From positions 620,001-684,000 of the forward strand of contig JAQYWK010000003.1 of assembly GCA_030145055.1 (NCBI GenBank): a DNA stretch of 64,000 nt. Direction: 5' to 3'. This DNA is from Desulfovibrio sp. GTDB lineage: Bacteria; Desulfobacterota; Desulfovibrionia; Desulfovibrionales; Desulfovibrionaceae. The translations under genes and the position numbers were made by a program. A model generated the notes under the pieces. The model saw only the letters and a program-made list of their open reading frames with translations, was not told the DNA's origin and did no database searches. Positions 12,395 through 19,866 of this stretch are shown in pieces. Within the stretch, counting starts at the first letter, position 1. The number at the start of each line of letters is the position of its first letter.

Positions 12395-12682
12395 TTAATC
12401 CATGAAATTAGTCAGAACCTTTACAAAGCGGTCCATAGCTTCCACAGGATCTTCACCCTTTTCGAGTGAATCAGCGTAACATTTAAGCATATACCGTTTC
12501 ATTATAAGTGAAGTCGCAGATTTAAGAGCTGAGCGAGCGGCCTTAACTTGGACCAGAATGTCATTACATTCTTTCCCGCCCTCGATCATGCCCTGAATAC
12601 CGCGTACCTGTCCTTCGATACGCTTCATGCGTTTCAGGACTTCCTGTTTTATTTGTTCCTGCTCAGAATTATTTTCAGTCAT
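12395..12682 (-). CDS. CsoR/FrmR-family repressor, CstR-like (persulfide sensor candidate)
   Basis: A 95-residue all-helical DUF156 protein (family members bind DNA as tetramers). Family hallmarks are RMKRIEGQVRGIQGMIE and a Cys in KECNDILVQ. Numbering from ATG 12682, Cys39 and Cys68 are 29 residues apart, the same spacing as the Cys pair of CsoR and of CstR. The Cu(I)-ligand His expected four residues before the second Cys is Tyr64. A C-x-C signature lacking His is what separates the persulfide sensor CstR from copper CsoR. The locus encodes rhodaneses and a sulfur-reductase-type enzyme, which fits. ATG 12682 is preferred to 12688 because TAGGAG is then spaced 8 nt. It is divergent from the TorD gene, with about 60 nt between starts. 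Confidence 0.85.
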   Translation of the reverse strand: MTENNSEQEQIKQEVLKRMKRIEGQVRGIQGMIEGGKECNDILVQVKAARSALKSATSLIMKRYMLKCYADSLEKGEDPVEAMDRFVKVLTNFMD

Positions 12683-12742
12683 AACCATTTCTCCTACACC
12701 AAGTGGTTGTATGTGCCCTTAACTTTAAGTAGGCTTGCATAC

Positions 12743-13435
12743 ATGAGTAATCAAAAAAATCTTATTTCAGAATCGAATGCAACTGGTAGCCAAAGTGCCA
12801 CCCCAAATCAAATTTATCTTCTAAACTGTCTTGAAATCTGCACCATCATCTTTCGCGGATTTCGTTCCAGTGAGAATGAAAATGAATGCAGAGCTGTTCT
12901 GGAAGACGGCCTTCCCGCGCTGACTTCCCCTTCCGAAAATTCTATACAGTCCCTAGCCAATATCGCTGCTACAATTCTAGATTCTCTAGATAATTCCTGT
13001 TCTCAGGAAGAAATATGTTTCCGCCTCGAAACTGATTACGTCAACTTATTTGTCAATAATATAAAAGGTATAACCGCTCCCCTATACGAATCCTGCTACA
13101 CCCCAGGTACAGCGCGAACAATGGGTGAACCCGCTCTTGCCATGCGAGATAGACTTGAACAATACGGACTAAAGCCTAGCGGAGACCTTGCCACAGAACC
13201 ACCGGATCACCTTTGCATCGAGTTGGAATATCTATTCGTCCTACTTATTCAGGCATGGGGATCAAATGATTCATCTGCCGAAAAGAAGGCGCTTAGGTTT
13301 GGACAAGAAATGCTCGCGTGGACCAAGCTGTTCAGAGAAAAACTCAGTTCGTCTAATTCAACCAATTCAGGAAAATTTTATTTACTATCAGCAGATTTTT
13401 TAGTTGCGACTCTAACCGAAATCATTAGCGAATAG
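12743..13435 (+). CDS. TorD/DmsD-family molybdoenzyme maturation chaperone
   Basis: About 230 residues, all-helical, of the TorD/DmsD/NarJ group of cytoplasmic chaperones that bind a Tat signal and help insert molybdenum cofactor. Visible family features are an N-terminal helix block (IYLLNCLEICTIIFRGF), the DYVNLFVN segment, ESCYTPGTARTMGEP in the middle, and PPDHLCIELEYLFVLL, matching the family's EPxDHLxxELxFM motif. The natural client is the Tat-signal molybdoenzyme encoded at 17167-19377. ATG 12743 is chosen because the open frame upstream runs antisense over the CstR-like gene. Its 3' end overlaps the convergent rhodanese gene by 11 nt. Confidence 0.88.
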   Translation: MSNQKNLISESNATGSQSATPNQIYLLNCLEICTIIFRGFRSSENENECRAVLEDGLPALTSPSENSIQSLANIAATILDSLDNSCSQEEICFRLETDYVNLFVNNIKGITAPLYESCYTPGTARTMGEPALAMRDRLEQYGLKPSGDLATEPPDHLCIELEYLFVLLIQAWGSNDSSAEKKALRFGQEMLAWTKLFREKLSSSNSTNSGKFYLLSADFLVATLTEIISE

Positions 13436-14426
13436 TACACTTCTGCCCGTGTCGCCCGCTCAAAGAGCTATTGATTTGTTTTAAGAGCGGAACAGGGTCA
13501 GATTTAATATCGCTAAAGCTAAATACGGAGATAAGACCTGATTCTGTCTTCTTAAACATTACTACTGTCGGCAAGGGGTATCTGCCGAAGTCGTCAGCTA
13601 TCTCTTCCAGCGGATCGGCAAAAAAAGGATAGCTTGCAACAGTTTCACTGGCAGAACGCTTCACCGCCCGTTTATTCATACCCAGTCCAATTGCGACGAA
13701 AAGCACATCCGGCGTGCAGCATTCCAATTCTTTGCGAACTTTTTCAAAAGTACGGGCCGCCTGTTCACTTTCCAAACGGTTGTCATTAACAAGCAGAACT
13801 AGGTAATAATTGAACCGCAAATCTTGAAGCCTGACTTTTCGCGCAGACTCCTCCACTCCAAGGCGTTCCTTATCTTTGGCGCCACCTAATATGCTAAGTT
13901 CTGTATCTGGAAAAAATGTTTCGAAAGTCAGTGCTACTGTCTCTAGTTTTTTACTATGATCCGCAACCCACCCGTACCAGCCGTCAGGGTATCTAATCAC
14001 ATTTGTATATCCAAGACGCACTGCCCAGCGCGCTGCAATTGCACTACGCAGTCACCTGAAACTTCGGCAATATATGAGTATGAGCCGATTTAAATCATTC
14101 CCCGCCAATTGCCGGAACTCATCTTTTTTTGATTCCCCAATCCGAATCTGTTCACTTAGATCGAACTCAATATTCACCGCTTCGGGAATATGTCCGTCCT
14201 CAAATTCATACCCTGTCCGCACATCCAAAACCAGAAGACCCTGCGTCCCATTCAGCACGTTTTCAAGCTGAGATCCAGACACCAGTTCATACCCGTTCTG
14301 CTTTGCTTCGCTAGCCGCATCCGCCCACCATGAAGGGTCTTCTCCCGCACTCCATCCCGCTAGCGGCGCGACAAAAAGAAGCCCTAGCATTGCAAAAGCA
14401 GATAGTACAAACCGATTAATAAACAT
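13425..14426 (-). CDS. exported rhodanese-thioredoxin-fold protein with in-frame UGA (candidate selenoprotein)
   Basis: One reading frame of 333 codons interrupted by a single TGA at 14052-14054 (codon 125). Residues 1-27 are a signal peptide; about 45-145 form a rhodanese domain (VLDVRTGYEFEDGHIPEAVN; Cys120 in YCRSFR; after the TGA, LRSAIAARWAVRLGY). Residues about 170-325 look like a thioredoxin fold with a cis-Pro-type LPT but no CxxC. The stretch from Tyr119 to the GY motif aligns without gaps to the two N-terminal domains of the neighbouring triple rhodanese. There the UGA position is the second Cys of a Cys-X4-Cys motif (YCQGLKC). Selenocysteine insertion is therefore likelier than a random nonsense mutation, but a decayed gene is possible. 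It lies 60 nt after the triple rhodanese gene, behind a terminator. Confidence 0.72.
14021..14051 (-). promoter_or_regulatory. SECIS-like stem-loop immediately after the in-frame UGA
   Basis: Reading 5'->3' on the minus strand, nt 1-31 after the TGA fold as 4 bp, a G-G mismatch, then 6 bp (two G-U pairs), with a 9-nt loop AATTGCAGC containing G. Bacterial SECIS elements are stem-loops just 3' of UGA with a loop G. This loop begins at +12, somewhat closer to the UGA than in E. coli fdhF. GC-rich coding DNA can fold like this by chance. Confidence 0.45.
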
Positions 14427-14446: not shown

Positions 14447-14474
14447 AGACCGGAAGCATCTCTGCTTCCGGTCT
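14447..14474 (-). terminator. rho-independent terminator after the triple-rhodanese gene
   Basis: A perfect 12-bp inverted repeat (arms 14447-14458 and 14463-14474) with a 4-nt loop. On the minus strand it is followed by TTTTAAT. It separates the triple-rhodanese gene from the UGA-containing rhodanese gene, so the latter would be expressed by read-through or from its own promoter. Confidence 0.8.
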
Positions 14475-14485
14475 GATATTATGCA

Positions 14486-15595
14486 TTATTTCTTTGGAGT
14501 GTGGATCTTGAATGTGCCGTCTTTGTTAAAATCAACTTCGGCTTCAAGGTAGTAAACGTCCTTGATATCAGGGCGCATATCTTTAACCATGTAGTAAGAT
14601 TCACCGCTACGTGCTCCTGTAGAACAAACAAACACGATAGGTTTATCAGTAGGAAGCTTCTTCATATCCTTTTCAAGCTTATCAACAGTCATATTCACAG
14701 CACTTGGAATATGGCCCATGGCGAATTCGTCAGCGTCGCGAACATCAATAAGCATGATGGACTTAGGGTTTTCAGCCATTATTTTTTCGAACTGCTTAAT
14801 GGCGATACTACCTTCTTCTCCGCCGGCCTCAACTTTCACAGCTGCGGCAGAACCGTACATCTTAACCCAGCCCGGATAGCCAGCTTCAGCAACGGAAACG
14901 TTGGTGTAACCAAGCTTCTTAGCCTTTATGGCAGACTTATGACTGAGCTTACATTTGTAACCCTGACAGAAGTAAATGAGAGGTGCATTCTTGTCAGTAG
15001 GTAGAAGTCCTTTACGCTTGTCAAACTGGGAATCAGGAATAGAAATAGATGATGGGATTGAACCCGCAAGGAACTTTTTAGTCGGACGAGCATCAATCAA
15101 CAGATACTCATCACCTTTCGCCATTTTAGCGGCAACAACTTCAAGCCCGATGGAACCGTAACGTCCAGACTGAATCCAACCGGGGTAACCATACGGAAAA
15201 ACTTTAACGTTTTTATAGCCAAGCTTAACTGCTTTCTTGGCACTCTTGTGACTGAGCTTACATTTCAAACCCTGACAATAAAAAATGAGCAAAGTGTTTT
15301 TGTCTTTAGGCAGCTTAGCAGTCATTTTATCGAACTGGGAATCAGGAATTGAGACCGCAGTTGGAATGTAGCCAAGCATGTATTTGCCTTTGTAAGGACG
15401 TGAATCAATAACCATAACGCCTTCAGGCTTAGGCATCTTCGCGTACTTTGCAACAAAGTCAACATCGACCATATCTGTGTACATCCAGTCCTGCATTTTA
15501 TCAGCCGGAACAAGATCTTTCGCCATTGCCGGACCTGCGATAAATGCAAGACACAGCGCCATTACCAAAGCTGTAACGAACTGTTTTCTTCTCAT
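14486..15595 (-). CDS. exported triple-rhodanese-domain sulfurtransferase
   Basis: A 369-residue periplasmic protein with a signal peptide (1-25, ending AMA) and three rhodanese-like domains (about 35-145, 150-248, 262-362). Domains 1 and 2 share the active-site pattern YCQGLKCKLSHKSA / FCQGYKCKLSHKSA, with Cys107/Cys112 and Cys210/Cys215 in a Cys-X4-Cys arrangement. Domain 3 has a classical loop, VCSTGARSGES, with Cys324. It probably carries persulfide sulfur between donors and the co-encoded reductase. It is the last gene of the operon that starts with the cytochrome c gene. The RBS GAGGAA lies upstream of the ATG. It is the key comparison for the neighbouring UGA-containing gene. Confidence 0.9.
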   Translation of the reverse strand: MRRKQFVTALVMALCLAFIAGPAMAKDLVPADKMQDWMYTDMVDVDFVAKYAKMPKPEGVMVIDSRPYKGKYMLGYIPTAVSIPDSQFDKMTAKLPKDKNTLLIFYCQGLKCKLSHKSAKKAVKLGYKNVKVFPYGYPGWIQSGRYGSIGLEVVAAKMAKGDEYLLIDARPTKKFLAGSIPSSISIPDSQFDKRKGLLPTDKNAPLIYFCQGYKCKLSHKSAIKAKKLGYTNVSVAEAGYPGWVKMYGSAAAVKVEAGGEEGSIAIKQFEKIMAENPKSIMLIDVRDADEFAMGHIPSAVNMTVDKLEKDMKKLPTDKPIVFVCSTGARSGESYYMVKDMRPDIKDVYYLEAEVDFNKDGTFKIHTPKK

Positions 15596-15668: not shown

Positions 15669-16388
15669 TTAACTTTCAGACCCAGAATCGCTCTTAACCT
15701 TGTCGTACCAAATTTTATGGTGATGCTTCGCGTAGCCTTCCGGTACATGCCCTGTGAACATAGACAGGAATCCGGGCCGTTCTTCAGGAGAAATCGCCGC
15801 CATATAAATATGAACCAAAAGACCTGCGAACACTAAGCCTACAGCCAGATAGTGCAGTGTCACAGACCAACTGACCAGAGCTGTAGCCTCAGCGCCGAGA
15901 GTTCTATCAGACAGGAACATGATAATCCCCGTCACAACAATTACGATACACCCGACGACCGAAGCTTGAGCAAAAGCCTTCTGTCCCATGTTGTAATAAC
16001 CCTGATCCGGCAACTTGGCATTATCACCAAGCGGCTTAGGTCCAACGGTCATGATAACCATTTTTTTAATTATCCACGGAATGTCGCGGGCCGGGCTGAC
16101 CACGAACACTTCCTTAAGGAAGAACAAAGCGCCCTTCAAATTTATCATTATATAGAGCAGCAATCCGCCAGCCCAGATGAATCCTAAAGTTACGTGAATA
16201 AGGAGCAAATTCCCTCCGCCGCCCACAAGCGAGCGAACAAAGGCAGGATAACCAGATCCAACAGGATCAATTTCAGGATTACTGAACAACGCCAATCCGG
16301 TGATGAGCAGTAACAACCAACAAACCGCATTAAACCAGTGGATGAAAATGTCTGAGCGGTCGTGCCGCTTTAATTGTTTCTGACTCAT
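15669..16388 (-). CDS. cytochrome b subunit of molybdoenzyme complex (FdnI/PhsC type)
   Basis: A 239-residue integral membrane protein with four predicted helices (about 15-35, 58-80, 128-150, 165-190) and histidines suited to two b hemes (HDRSDIFIHWFNAV; LLLIHVTLGF; LHYLAVGLVFAGLLVHIY). It matches the formate-dehydrogenase-gamma/thiosulfate-reductase cytochrome b family. It should pass electrons from the menaquinol pool to the Fe-S subunit. Its start codon overlaps the stop of the Fe-S subunit gene (TAATG), which indicates translational coupling. Confidence 0.9.
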   Translation of the reverse strand: MSQKQLKRHDRSDIFIHWFNAVCWLLLLITGLALFSNPEIDPVGSGYPAFVRSLVGGGGNLLLIHVTLGFIWAGGLLLYIMINLKGALFFLKEVFVVSPARDIPWIIKKMVIMTVGPKPLGDNAKLPDQGYYNMGQKAFAQASVVGCIVIVVTGIIMFLSDRTLGAEATALVSWSVTLHYLAVGLVFAGLLVHIYMAAISPEERPGFLSMFTGHVPEGYAKHHHKIWYDKVKSDSGSES

Positions 16389-17170
16389 TATGCATCCCCC
16401 CCTTTATTTTGGGAGTCGGTTCCAGACTCATCATGAACATCGTCCTCAGAACCAGATCCGGCTATAAGCTGTCTGACAAGCATCACTGCAACACCGATTC
16501 CCGACAAACCAACCACAGTTCTAACTAGCGGATTCACTACGCTGGTTAGCGCAACCATAGCTGTCGGCATTTTAGCTTCGACAGGCCAGTTCAGCGGCGC
16601 AGTTTCACCGAGGTAGATCATATTAGGTTTGGTATCAGTCTTGGCGTTAACAACTCGAACAAGCCTATCCGCGTTTTTCGCAAGTAGACGCGATGCTTCG
16701 GACTCAGGATCATTGATATCACCGAAAACACGAGCCTTGGTCGGGCAAGTATCAACACAAGCGGGCATAAGTCCCTGCTCTCTACGTTCGGCACAGAAAT
16801 TACACTTGTCGGCTTTCTTGGTCAGAATATTTCGGAAACGGGCATCGTACGGACAGGCTGGAATACAGTTTCCGCACCCTATACACAATGAAGAATCAAT
16901 GTGCACCGTGCCGTCTTTTTTGTCTTTGTAGGTAGCGCCAGTGGGACAAGCCTGAACACAAGTAGGATTGTCGCAATGCATGCAGCCACCGGGCTGAAAG
17001 TGAATTTTAGGAAATCTGGCAGTAAAATCAGGAACTGAATGCTTAACCCAGTTTCGCCACTGCCCCTCGGGTGAATCATTTGCAATTTTGCACGATGCCA
17101 TGCACCCCTTGCAATCTATGCACATGGACGAATCAATTACCATGGCCAGTTGAGCTTGTTTAGTACTCAT
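16388..17170 (-). CDS. 4Fe-4S electron-transfer subunit with C-terminal membrane anchor (PhsB/FdnH type)
   Basis: A 260-residue ferredoxin-like beta subunit with four cysteine clusters for four [4Fe-4S] centres: CIDCKGCMASC, CMHCDNPTCVQACP, CIGCGNCIPACP and CNFC...ACVDTCP. A single hydrophobic helix near residues 215-240 (LSGIGVAVMLV region) anchors it, as in FdnH. It links the cytochrome b to the catalytic subunit. Its ATG overlaps the stop of the catalytic-subunit gene (ATGA). The subunit set is therefore FdnGHI-like in architecture although the catalytic subunit is PhsA/PsrA-like. Confidence 0.92.
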   Translation of the reverse strand: MSTKQAQLAMVIDSSMCIDCKGCMASCKIANDSPEGQWRNWVKHSVPDFTARFPKIHFQPGGCMHCDNPTCVQACPTGATYKDKKDGTVHIDSSLCIGCGNCIPACPYDARFRNILTKKADKCNFCAERREQGLMPACVDTCPTKARVFGDINDPESEASRLLAKNADRLVRVVNAKTDTKPNMIYLGETAPLNWPVEAKMPTAMVALTSVVNPLVRTVVGLSGIGVAVMLVRQLIAGSGSEDDVHDESGTDSQNKGGDA

Positions 17171-19377
17171 GAGGCCACCTTCCTTGTTACGGAAACGATT
17201 GTTTCATGCAAAGCCGCGTTACCACAGATCTCGTCATAACCTTCTTGAAGCACCGCTGACATGCTGGCGCCCTCACCGAAGATAAGACTGAGCTGAGGCG
17301 ACAAGGCTCCAAATCCTGAGAGCATATAGACTGTGTCCTCGCGGATTCCGTCAGTAATCTCTACTTTAAGTTCTCCCCTGCCGACCGAGCTGGCAACTTC
17401 CACAGTATCACCGGGCTGAATGCCGAGATTCTTGGCAGACGCTGTATTCAGCCACAGAGTATTAGGACCAGTCAGTTGATGGAGGACCGCATTGTTTTGC
17501 GATGAAGTCTGCGTAACCATAGCGCTTCGTCCAACGACCATGCGGAACCGGTTTTTAGGAACCTTGGAAGGAGGTGAATAAACAGGCATCGGGTCTACGC
17601 CCATGCCTTCGTACCGACTATTATACAGCTCTATTTTTTTACTTAAAGTCTTGTAAACCCGATCCTCATAGATGCCGTAGACCTTGCTTGGGTTATAATA
17701 AACTCCATCCTCAGCCAGCGCATTGGCTGCATTCGGAAGGCCACGAAGTTGCTTTTCACGATATTCCTCTATGGTAAAATCGAAGTATTCGCCCAGCTCC
17801 AACTTACCGGCAACAGACTTGAGTATATCAAAGACGGGCCGCGACTCGTACATAGCCGGAACCACTGCGTCACGCTGAACAACACAGGCGCAGGCTACCG
17901 AGCCTTGAAGGCCGGAAGCAGGGTCCTGACGTTCAAGAGAGCTTGGCGCAGGCAGAACCAAATCAGCCATCCATGCAGTATCACTCATGGCAACATCCAC
18001 CACAGTCATAAACTCCATCGCGTTTGCCATTTCTATGGTTTTGGCGCGATTAGGGGCAGTGCCGAGCGGATTAGTTTTGTAAACAAACCATCCCTTAATA
18101 GGATATGGCTTGCCAGAAAGAACTGCATCGCGGGTGAGAACAAAAGAACCGTCATGCTCAAACATCATGGGCACTTTATGAGCATCTACGCGATCATCAG
18201 GGTTATCATCATACCAAGGTGCGTCATAAGGCACACCCTTAAGCCCTACTTCACGTGCGGCAAGAAGTCCGCCCGGCTGATCCCAGTTACTAAGAAGAGC
18301 ATTCACTATGGCGAAGCTACGTCTGATCTGGGTAGAATTTTTGTAATCCGAAGTTCTGCGGCCCGGATAAATCATTGCCGCAGGAGCCGCCGCAGCAAGC
18401 TCTCTAGCTATGCGAGCTATATCCTCAGCCGGAATTCCGCACTCTTCAGCAGCAAATCGCGGATCATACTTTTGAACGTGCTCACGGAGCTGATCAATCC
18501 CGTAAGTTTTATCCTGAATCCAAGTTTCATTATATAATTTTTCGTTGATAATGACGTGCGCAAGAGCCAGCATGAACGCCATATCTGTACCGGGACGAAT
18601 CGGATACCACTCATTAGCGAGGGCCGCAGTCTTGGTATAGCGGGGATCAAGAACCACCAGCTTTGTTCCTTTTTGCATGGCGGTCATAAGATCTATGGAA
18701 TCCGGCGTAACCAATGCTTCAAAGCGATTAGCACCTGCCATAATTATATATTTGCTATTCAACACGTCCGCAAAAGGAACTTCACCGAAGGTATCTAGAA
18801 AGGCTCTGCTACCACTAAGAAGACACAAAGATTCATGCGATGTAACATTATAAGAACCATAAACCTCAGCAAAACGGCCTACGAATTGCGATTGCAGATC
18901 GGCGCCCGCACTAAAAAGATGCCCACAAGAGGTATACTTTTTACGGATGTCCTGCATCTTTTCGGCCATCAGATCCAAGGCTTCGTCCCAAGGAATACGC
19001 TGCCATTTACCTTCGCCACGCGCCCCTTTTCTAAGAAGGGGGTATTTGAGGCGGTCAGGATCGTATAGCTGAGCAACACCTGCATTACCGCGGGCGCAGA
19101 GCATTCCTCTAGACTTAATAAATTTGGGGTTAGGATCGAGCTTTTTAACTACACCGTCTTGTACTCTAGCGATGCAACCGCACTTATTAAAGCACATGTC
19201 ACACACAGAATAAGCGGAACTCCACTCACCGGAGGACTGAGCAGCATGAGCCAAGCTGGGCTCAAGTCCGCCAAGTACAGGAACACTTCCGGCAGCCGCA
19301 GCCGCAATAAGCCCTGAGGCCTTAAAGAAATCACGGCGAGATAGTTTCATATTGTCTTTGGCCACTTCCACCTCCAT
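17167..19377 (-). CDS. Tat-exported molybdopterin oxidoreductase, thiosulfate/polysulfide reductase type
   Basis: A 736-residue catalytic subunit of the DMSO-reductase superfamily. The N-terminus has a Tat signal (SRRDFFKASGLIAAAAAG). An Fe-S motif follows (CDMCFNKCGC... and a fourth Cys in MLCARGNAG). The Mo-ligand region reads SHESLCLLSGSRAF, so a Cys ligand as in PhsA/PsrA. The molybdopterin-dinucleotide domain is at the C-terminus. Size and motifs fit thiosulfate, polysulfide or a related sulfur or arsenic substrate; adjacent rhodaneses favour a sulfur substrate. ATG 19377 lacks a good ribosome site; GTG 19365 has GGAGG five bases upstream and may be the true start. TorD chaperone nearby. 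Confidence 0.9.
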   Translation of the reverse strand: MEVEVAKDNMKLSRRDFFKASGLIAAAAAGSVPVLGGLEPSLAHAAQSSGEWSSAYSVCDMCFNKCGCIARVQDGVVKKLDPNPKFIKSRGMLCARGNAGVAQLYDPDRLKYPLLRKGARGEGKWQRIPWDEALDLMAEKMQDIRKKYTSCGHLFSAGADLQSQFVGRFAEVYGSYNVTSHESLCLLSGSRAFLDTFGEVPFADVLNSKYIIMAGANRFEALVTPDSIDLMTAMQKGTKLVVLDPRYTKTAALANEWYPIRPGTDMAFMLALAHVIINEKLYNETWIQDKTYGIDQLREHVQKYDPRFAAEECGIPAEDIARIARELAAAAPAAMIYPGRRTSDYKNSTQIRRSFAIVNALLSNWDQPGGLLAAREVGLKGVPYDAPWYDDNPDDRVDAHKVPMMFEHDGSFVLTRDAVLSGKPYPIKGWFVYKTNPLGTAPNRAKTIEMANAMEFMTVVDVAMSDTAWMADLVLPAPSSLERQDPASGLQGSVACACVVQRDAVVPAMYESRPVFDILKSVAGKLELGEYFDFTIEEYREKQLRGLPNAANALAEDGVYYNPSKVYGIYEDRVYKTLSKKIELYNSRYEGMGVDPMPVYSPPSKVPKNRFRMVVGRSAMVTQTSSQNNAVLHQLTGPNTLWLNTASAKNLGIQPGDTVEVASSVGRGELKVEITDGIREDTVYMLSGFGALSPQLSLIFGEGASMSAVLQEGYDEICGNAALHETIVSVTRKVAS

Positions 19378-19454: not shown

Positions 19455-19778
19455 CTAGCTACACTTAGCCGGGGTCGGGGAATCCTTGGCGAAATCATGC
19501 AGGTAAGTGAATATGTCGTTCAAGTCTTTTTCGCTGACGCCATTCCAATCAGGAGAACACTGAATCTTGGATGTGTCAGAGAATGTTGCAGTCCACCCAG
19601 CTTGAGTCTTACTGTTAGGACTAAGATCGGAAGCACTATCGCCGTGACAGGTACGGCAGTGCTTTCTGTAAAGGAATTTACCTTTGCGAGCGTTACCGTC
19701 ACCCATTGCAGTAGCCATGCTCGCAATTGAAAGGACCAGCAAAACACCGAGAAGAAGACTAATCATTTTACGATTCAT
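19455..19778 (-). CDS. periplasmic monoheme cytochrome c
   Basis: A 107-residue exported c-type cytochrome with a signal peptide of about 24 residues (ending TAMG region) and one heme site, HCRTCHGD. The C-terminus has a cytochrome-c-like helix (SEKDLNDIFTYLHDFA). No methionine follows the heme motif, so the usual distal Met ligand is missing; two extra cysteines (IQCSPDW and the C-terminal AKCS) are present. Start at ATG 19778 because GGAGG lies 6 nt upstream. It is the first gene of the operon and probably an electron or sulfur carrier for the reductase. Confidence 0.88.
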   Translation of the reverse strand: MNRKMISLLLGVLLVLSIASMATAMGDGNARKGKFLYRKHCRTCHGDSASDLSPNSKTQAGWTATFSDTSKIQCSPDWNGVSEKDLNDIFTYLHDFAKDSPTPAKCS

Positions 19779-19866
19779 TACAATCCTCCAAAATTTTCTT
19801 TTTACATACCACCCTCTACATCTTTTTAATAGAGGGTCGACGAATTTCATCAAATATTACGATCTT

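Follow-up and report, generated by a model that had tools for sequence, protein, structure and literature searches.

A predicted selenocysteine-containing rhodanese encoded beside a molybdoenzyme resembling thiosulfate/polysulfide reductases in Desulfovibrio

A rhodanese gene with an in-frame UGA codon

The 64,000-nucleotide stretch of Desulfovibrio sp. considered here (assembly GCA_030145055.1, contig JAQYWK010000003.1, positions 620,001 to 684,000; hereafter the window) encodes a rhodanese in which one UGA codon appears to specify selenocysteine (Sec, U). On the minus strand, from 14426 to 13425, a single frame of 333 codons is followed by its final stop, and the sole internal stop is a TGA at codon 125 (14054-14052). 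An ordinary open reading frame (ORF) search cuts this gene, which we call the Sec-rhodanese gene, into two fragments. Its product (P0001) begins with a hydrophobic, signal-like segment (residues 1-27, 14346..14426; helix 3-19 in a structure model), from which export is predicted. The rhodanese domain spans residues 60-155 (13962..14249; PF00581, E 5.7e-16, 59.3 bits against a gathering score of 22.2) and holds the active-site cysteine, Cys120 (14067..14069), in a YCRSFRU loop, such that the UGA codon falls at +5 from the catalytic residue. Family profile and model secondary structure place a ResA-like, thioredoxin-like C-terminal domain at 13461..13910 (borders approximate), which lacks CxxC in this copy.

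The active-site loop, YCRSFR-UGA-LRSAIAARWAVRLGY, comprises 22 residues from Tyr-Cys to Gly-Tyr. It aligns without gaps and at equal length to YCQGLKCKLSHKSAKKAVKLGY in domain 1 of a triple rhodanese encoded immediately upstream (14486..15595, minus strand) and to FCQGYKCKLSHKSAIKAKKLGY in domain 2, where Phe replaces Tyr; in both cases the UGA lies opposite a cysteine. An earlier, sequence-only reading of this DNA had described both the 333-codon frame broken solely by the TGA at 14052-14054 and the 22-position, gap-free match to the two domains. Frame and alignment were re-derived and hold, and the strand, which that reading left unnamed, is minus. Among 13 rhodanese matches in the genome of the window, 5 have Cys or UGA at +5 and 8 are without it or unclear; a cysteine at +5 is therefore the mark of a subclass.

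Evidence for selenocysteine at codon 125

Several lines of evidence indicate that codon 125 is Sec, and on computational grounds we regard this as near certain. The claim is carried by the conservation of the UGA/Cys column and by coding constraint beyond the UGA; the RNA evidence is moderate and concerns the subgroup of the window only. First, the machinery is in place. The genome (3.9 Mb, 7 contigs, 99.99% complete) encodes selA (607.6 bits), selB (374.7 bits), tRNA-Sec (80.1 bits) and selD (329.6 bits, with an in-frame TGA of its own), so that all four genes singled out for a check by the sequence-only reading (selA, selB, selC and selD) are present above their curated cut-offs. More widely, selA was found in 67 of the 68 genomes carrying the Sec-rhodanese family, the single miss being a genome that is 77% complete.

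Second, the residue at codon 125 is restricted across the family. Of the 348 genomes of the order that were searched, 127 gave matches at E up to 1e-10. We aligned 70 loci, namely the 63 strongest matches (E up to 1.8e-21) and 7 weaker ones picked for their TGA (L091 and the six TsoB-like loci L092-L097); about 80 weaker listed matches, plus unlisted ones, were left out, and two of the aligned loci, L052 and L053, look identical within the aligned stretch. A contig search with P0001 gave 3 weak, distant loci that were not used. In the 70 loci the column holds U in 63 and Cys in 7, with no other residue. This bears out the earlier statement that a chance nonsense mutation is unlikely to have landed on this residue, and answers the homologue comparison at codon 125 that had been named as a check.

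A wider set takes in further loci found among 395 genomes of the phylum, with L053 and L103 removed beforehand as copies. The motif was found in 96 of these 97 loci: 58 are C-x4-U, 29 are C-x4-C and 9 are U-x4-U. The pattern used allows Cys or U only, and it missed L123, which is C-x4-C in a separate comparison; it therefore cannot reveal other residues, whereas the 70-locus alignment could have done so and showed none. Ten of the 29 C-x4-C loci have an orthologue-type YCR or FCR loop, and the other 19 are more distant YCGF rhodaneses. Parsimony on a 73-row tree, computed after masking of the site residues, gives 8 changes between Cys and Sec at +5, at least 3 of them forced by starred branches, although the tree was built by a quick method and has several long branches.

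Some relatives carry further stops: a TAA in G211, a TAG in G065 and extra TGAs in G337, G035, G033, G007 and G013. The extra TGAs of L061, L076, L082, L083 and L086 sit before or after the rhodanese domain. Two of these loci, L083 (G013:C7) and L086, are C-x4-U forms with in-frame TGAs soon past the domain, 4 TGAs being counted in the L083 match; these late TGAs probably represent the true stop and read-on sequence rather than additional Sec codons.

Third, the part of the gene beyond the UGA evolves as protein. Between the window gene and its nearest relative, whose protein is 89% identical, dN is 0.063 and dS 0.481 after the UGA, against 0.036 and 0.353 before it; the downstream part is thus under protein-level selection (dN/dS about 0.13), and six more pairs have dN well under dS downstream of the UGA. 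These results bear on two ways in which the UGA could be something other than Sec. A single base change turns a Cys codon into TGA, and the gene might be a normal Cys rhodanese that was mutated or misread at this codon; with a UGA at the same place in 63 of 70 loci, purifying selection past it and the Sec machinery present, we reject a pseudogene or sequencing error, to which we give practically no weight. Termination at the UGA might instead yield a functional product of 124 residues. Sec UGA codons do compete with termination, and a terminator-like hairpin ahead of the gene, described below, hints at regulated expression. Such a product is nevertheless very unlikely: it would stop within the active-site loop of the structure model, and selection acts downstream of the UGA. 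The probable selenoprotein of the sequence-only reading is consequently upheld, since machinery, UGA/Cys column and coding constraint past the UGA agree.

Synonymous sites just past the UGA are constrained as well. A 7-column interval starting at +1 ranks first of 172 in a set of 23 sequences and first of 100 in a set of 31 that includes those 23, with permutation p values of about 0.002 and 0.0005, respectively. Two points tell against the assignment of Sec at this stage. The constraint interval was picked after viewing the alignment, and in the 23-sequence set an interval at +124 scores nearly as high (0.17 vs 0.18). In addition, 10 genomes with Cys instead of Sec also hold selA; presence of the machinery therefore does not force Sec, and presence of selA is ruled out as the explanation of which residue is used.

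A candidate RNA element downstream of the UGA

A bacterial selenocysteine insertion sequence (SECIS) is a hairpin with a G in its apical loop, about 16-37 nt after the UGA. In the window the candidate is GCGCGC-UGGGCA-GUGCGU at 14033-14016 on the minus strand, whose G run lies about 25 nt past the UGA. It was assessed in the 34 ULR-type loci, the window included (30 distinct), with the arms at alignment columns 22-27 and 34-39 and the loop UGGGCA between them. In these loci 90.6% of cells are paired, a value equalled in 1 of 500 shuffles; the covariation score was reached by 7 of 500 shuffles, and both-side changes occur at two pairs (48 of 500). A shuffle count so low can, by the tool's own warning, stem from relatedness alone, which is itself a point to hold against the hairpin. 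Covariation lends the candidate element moderate support within the ULR subgroup. A longer rival stem in the same group pairs in 95.2% of cells and was not adopted, as it shows no covariation; that it pairs so well is a further point on the contrary side.

Nine U-x4-U loci (TsoB-like L092-L097, L121, L122 and L124) carry a UGA at both 0 and +5 in the rhodanese loop. Here a hairpin follows the second UGA, 3 columns nearer to it than in the ULR group; it is 100% paired in 9 of 9 loci, and one of its pairs shows compensatory third-position changes (1 of 500 shuffles).

Other results speak against a SECIS shared by the whole family. RNAalifold found no single consensus fold for the 58 C-x4-U loci. 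For the 24 C-x4-U loci outside the ULR type, pairing of the hairpin of the window falls to 59.7% of cells; the U-x4-U hairpin pairs in 76.4% of their cells and shows no covariation. Folding energies are weak against synonymous reshuffling (mean z of -0.45 in the ULR group and 0.10, -0.47 and -0.10 in others); the window hairpin by energy alone is no better than shuffles, longer stretches of the window adopt other folds, and an Rfam search gave no match.

The C-terminal domain

The family profile matches ResA (3c73, E 1.4e-13) and, more weakly, 1qxn (listed as sulfide dehydrogenase, E 4.5e-6), which we take to be Sud. AhpC-TSA is detected in 39 of 53 family members, and CxxC occurs in the C-terminal region of 40 of the 45 long members. 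The thioredoxin-fold fusion of the sequence-only reading therefore stands for the family, which is ResA-like by profile, but less well for the copy that prompted it: a Pfam search of the window protein gave no match in the C-terminal region, and CxxC has been lost there. An AlphaFold2 model from the 53-row family alignment has a mean pLDDT of 88.6 and a pTM of 0.59; the domains are therefore modeled with confidence, unlike their mutual arrangement. In the model, residue 125 falls between strand 115-119 and helix 127-137, within the connecting loop. Cys120 is invariant across the 53 rows.

The surrounding gene cluster

The cluster around the Sec-rhodanese gene reads, in order, cytochrome c, molybdenum (Mo) subunit, Fe-S subunit, cytochrome b, triple rhodanese and Sec-rhodanese, followed by a convergent TorD-like chaperone and a CsoR-family repressor. 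On the minus strand lie a cytochrome c-like protein (19455..19853, PF13442; start uncertain), a PhsA-like molybdopterin subunit (17167..19377), a 4Fe-4S subunit of TtrB/NrfC-like type (16388..17170; best NCBIfam match TtrB, 179.9 bits, under the cut-off of 416), a cytochrome b561-like membrane subunit (15669..16388, PF01292) and the triple rhodanese, which by domain and motif matches has C-x4-C in domains 1 and 2. The best NCBIfam match of the Mo subunit is PhsA and its best Protein Data Bank (PDB) chain is 2vpw, 'thiosulfate reductase' (E 1.7e-105). From the Sec-rhodanese family, the NCBIfam scan covered the copy in the window. The TorD-like chaperone is on the plus strand (12548..13435, PF02613; TorD 60.3 bits, under the cut-off of 132), its ORF start probably being called too early, and the repressor gene is on the minus strand (12395..12688, PF02583).

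The triple rhodanese and Sec-rhodanese genes are separated by a terminator-like hairpin of 12 pairs (14447..14474, minus strand, fold z -7.0). It is also found in the nearest relative (L127:5995-6070), with one compensated base pair, and may act in the regulation of the selenoprotein gene.

Mo, Fe-S and membrane subunit genes stand together, as in the Psr/Phs reductases; the membrane subunit here is cytochrome b561-like, and PsrC is NrfD-like. The same association recurs in relatives. Among 54 loci with Sec-rhodanese, the multi-rhodanese is encoded on the same strand in 51, cytochrome b in 50, the Fe-S subunit in 49 and the Mo subunit in 48, and several of the misses fall on short contigs. Cytochrome c was seen in 21 of these loci, 20 of them fetched with longer flanks and the other being L081. 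TorD is present in 40 of 54 (32 on the opposite strand and 8 on the same strand) and CsoR in 31 of 54. One family (L076-L078, L081, L082, L084, L085 and L088) has TorD on the same strand, with the multi-rhodanese coming after it in L081 and L082; Sec-rhodanese is therefore not everywhere the last gene. Loci with Cys in place of Sec (L060, L062, L069, L075, L133 and L142) keep the same neighbors.

Within the family that has TorD on the same strand, the multi-rhodanese is itself C-x4-U in L077, L078, L081, L082, L085 and L088 and U-x4-U in L084 (L084:1185-2126). By their sequence, clusters with such a TGA-bearing multi-rhodanese would hold two selenoproteins.

The repressor of the window has the pattern C-x24-Y-x3-C, shared by 29 of the 31 CsoR-family relatives beside the cluster. 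The Tyr presumably occupies the place of the copper-site His, and we take the pattern to be a pointer to persulfide sensing of the CstR kind, which makes the repressor a candidate persulfide sensor. The genome of the window also encodes dsrB (515 bits over a cut-off of 341.5), and the organism therefore respires sulfur oxyanions.

Relation to known rhodanese selenoproteins

Rhodanese selenoproteins are already known, and the C-x4-U, ResA-fused form in a Mo-enzyme cluster is a variant of them. Table 1 of an inventory from May 2026 gives five (UxxS, UxxG, CxU, UxxG and UxxxxU), and none in that table is written as CxxxxU (PMC13188914). In the literature searched we found no paper in which CXXXXU occurs together with selenoprotein and no description of the rhodanese-ResA fusion or its cluster, although an earlier mention is possible. 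The entry 'form 1, UxxS' (PF00581, WP_010941598.1) resembles the protein of the window in having a single Sec in a rhodanese (PMC13188914, Table 1), a comparison that extends to motif notation only. It may be the same motif written from Sec onward: in that notation the U-L-R-S of the window, like the U-G-K-S or U-V-L-S of other loci, would become UxxS.

TsoB (NF045694), which is rhodanese/DsbD fusion-like and corresponds to the UxxxxU entry of the same table (PMC13188914), belongs to the same subclass, in which positions 0 and +5 are each Cys or Sec. The rhodanese part of NF045694 matches residues 29-156 of P0001, and L092-L097, which were taken for TsoB by motif and length, share the UGA column. 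In TsoB the catalytic Cys is also Sec, whereas position 0 is Cys in P0001; complete TsoB loci encode 573-584 residues, and P0001, which has a ResA-like domain, scores 91.9 bits, far under the cut-off of 805. The CxU form (NF041203) is likewise a rhodanese with Sec near the catalytic Cys, but its Sec is at +2 rather than +5, and P0001 reaches 27.1 bits against a cut-off of 115. The genome of the window holds a gene of this form, its second for a rhodanese selenoprotein (L008:1471-1905, C4:122767-123048; YCAUPNEY, NF041203 141.5 bits, over the cut-off of 115).

The phylum also contains C-x4-U rhodaneses with a different architecture. Among the 50 motif sites in the 30 loci that best match a TGA-bearing query, 12 are C-x4-U, and 3 of these (L164-L166) are the Sec-rhodanese gene and its orthologues; L147 and L148 are two further cases. 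A multi-rhodanese in G651 (L176:1501-2007) has two C-x4-U loops, CGGPTUKLSH and CGGYTUKLSH. The earlier judgment that the Cys-X4-Sec motif fused to a thioredoxin fold within a sulfur-reductase locus appears unusual is thus to be narrowed, given these rhodaneses, the cataloged U-x4-U TsoB and the possible identity with UxxS.

Proposed function

We propose that the protein is a periplasmic sulfane-sulfur carrier in which Sec125 aids the release of sulfur from Cys120, within a cluster resembling that of polysulfide reductase, and we put the probability of this reading at roughly 55%. The model for it is Sud, the periplasmic polysulfide carrier of Wolinella succinogenes, which presents polysulfide to the molybdopterin reductase PsrABC; the same source has the Sud homologue of Nautilia encoded apart from psrABC (PMC2628731). 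The family profile of Sec-rhodanese reaches 1qxn, as given above. To our knowledge, Sud has neither Sec nor a ResA-like domain. By analogy with Sud, both rhodaneses of the cluster would bring sulfane sulfur to the Mo enzyme or free it as sulfide.

The scheme that we envisage begins with the SelA/SelB/SelC/SelD system, which would read the UGA at codon 125 as Sec, guided by RNA structure directly downstream. The exported rhodanese would then serve a periplasmic Mo enzyme of the thiosulfate/polysulfide-reductase kind. Polysulfide, thiosulfate or the neighboring triple rhodanese would supply sulfane sulfur to Cys120, which would carry it as a persulfide; Sec125 would attack this persulfide such that sulfide is freed, or sulfur is handed to the Mo enzyme, and a Cys120-Sec125 selenenylsulfide would remain. 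The +5 position, at which the 70 aligned loci have nothing but Cys or Sec, suggests that release leaves a Cys-Se (or Cys-Cys) bond behind. Reduction of the selenenylsulfide may fall to the ResA-like CxxC domain in most of the long orthologues and to a separate reductant where CxxC or the domain is missing, that is, in the clade of the window and in the short forms. Insertion of Sec in the cell, export of the protein, the sulfur chemistry and the partners are what we infer here from genomes and models.

Some observations sit poorly with this proposal. CxxC is lost in the gene of the window and in four loci of its genus (L026-L029), and short orthologues lack the whole ResA-like domain; reduction in cis is therefore not general. 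The Mo subunit scores under the curated PhsA cut-off (526.6 vs 694 bits), and L091 shows none of the cluster genes.

The same domain invites a different role, in which the ResA-like part is the main enzyme and the selenoprotein acts in redox chemistry or repair, on disulfides or oxidized sulfur outside the cytoplasm or in protection of the Mo enzyme. The C-terminal domain is that of the ResA thiol-disulfide oxidoreductases, its CxxC is retained in the 40 long members counted above, and a review holds that most uncharacterized bacterial selenoproteins are likely redox proteins (PMC13188914). Unlike in ResA, the domain is fused here behind a rhodanese. Against this role, it is Cys120 that is invariant, whereas CxxC is lost in the clade of the window and the domain is absent from the short forms; furthermore, the constant partners are a multi-rhodanese and a Phs-like enzyme. 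We consider a redox or repair role unlikely, though it is the most serious competitor of the sulfane-sulfur carrier.

A part in selenium or tellurium chemistry, such as carrying selenium or reducing selenite, is a more doubtful assignment still. In its favor, a Geobacter cluster has the putative rhodanese ExtH together with a porin, ExtI, implicated in selenite and tellurite reduction (PMC5877670), and the weaker family matches of the Mo subunit include selenate reductases. The best matches of that subunit are, however, PhsA and 2vpw, no selenium-metabolism gene was seen among the cluster genes scanned in the window, and the six Cys loci listed above retain the same neighbors.

A fuller version of the carrier proposal can be offered only tentatively. 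The protein might be a selenium-dependent sulfane-sulfur reductase derived from a rhodanese, in which Cys120 takes up sulfur, Sec125 expels sulfide by way of a Cys-Se bond and the fused thioredoxin domain resets the site; it might form a standing module of a widespread sulfur-respiring Mo-enzyme cluster, whose partner rhodanese is a Sec protein as well in some lineages.

Implications

Because a plain ORF search breaks Sec-rhodanese in two, it is easy to overlook this regular component of a conserved sulfur-respiration cluster. If the proposed function is correct, selenium enters a sulfur-transfer step beside a Phs/Psr-like enzyme, and the C-x4-C, C-x4-U and U-x4-U forms, with and without a CxxC domain, would constitute a natural series in which to probe what Sec contributes to persulfide chemistry. 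The place of the predicted Sec next to the active site of a sulfur-carrying enzyme, encoded in a conserved cluster, suggests that selenium helps these bacteria to move or release sulfur.

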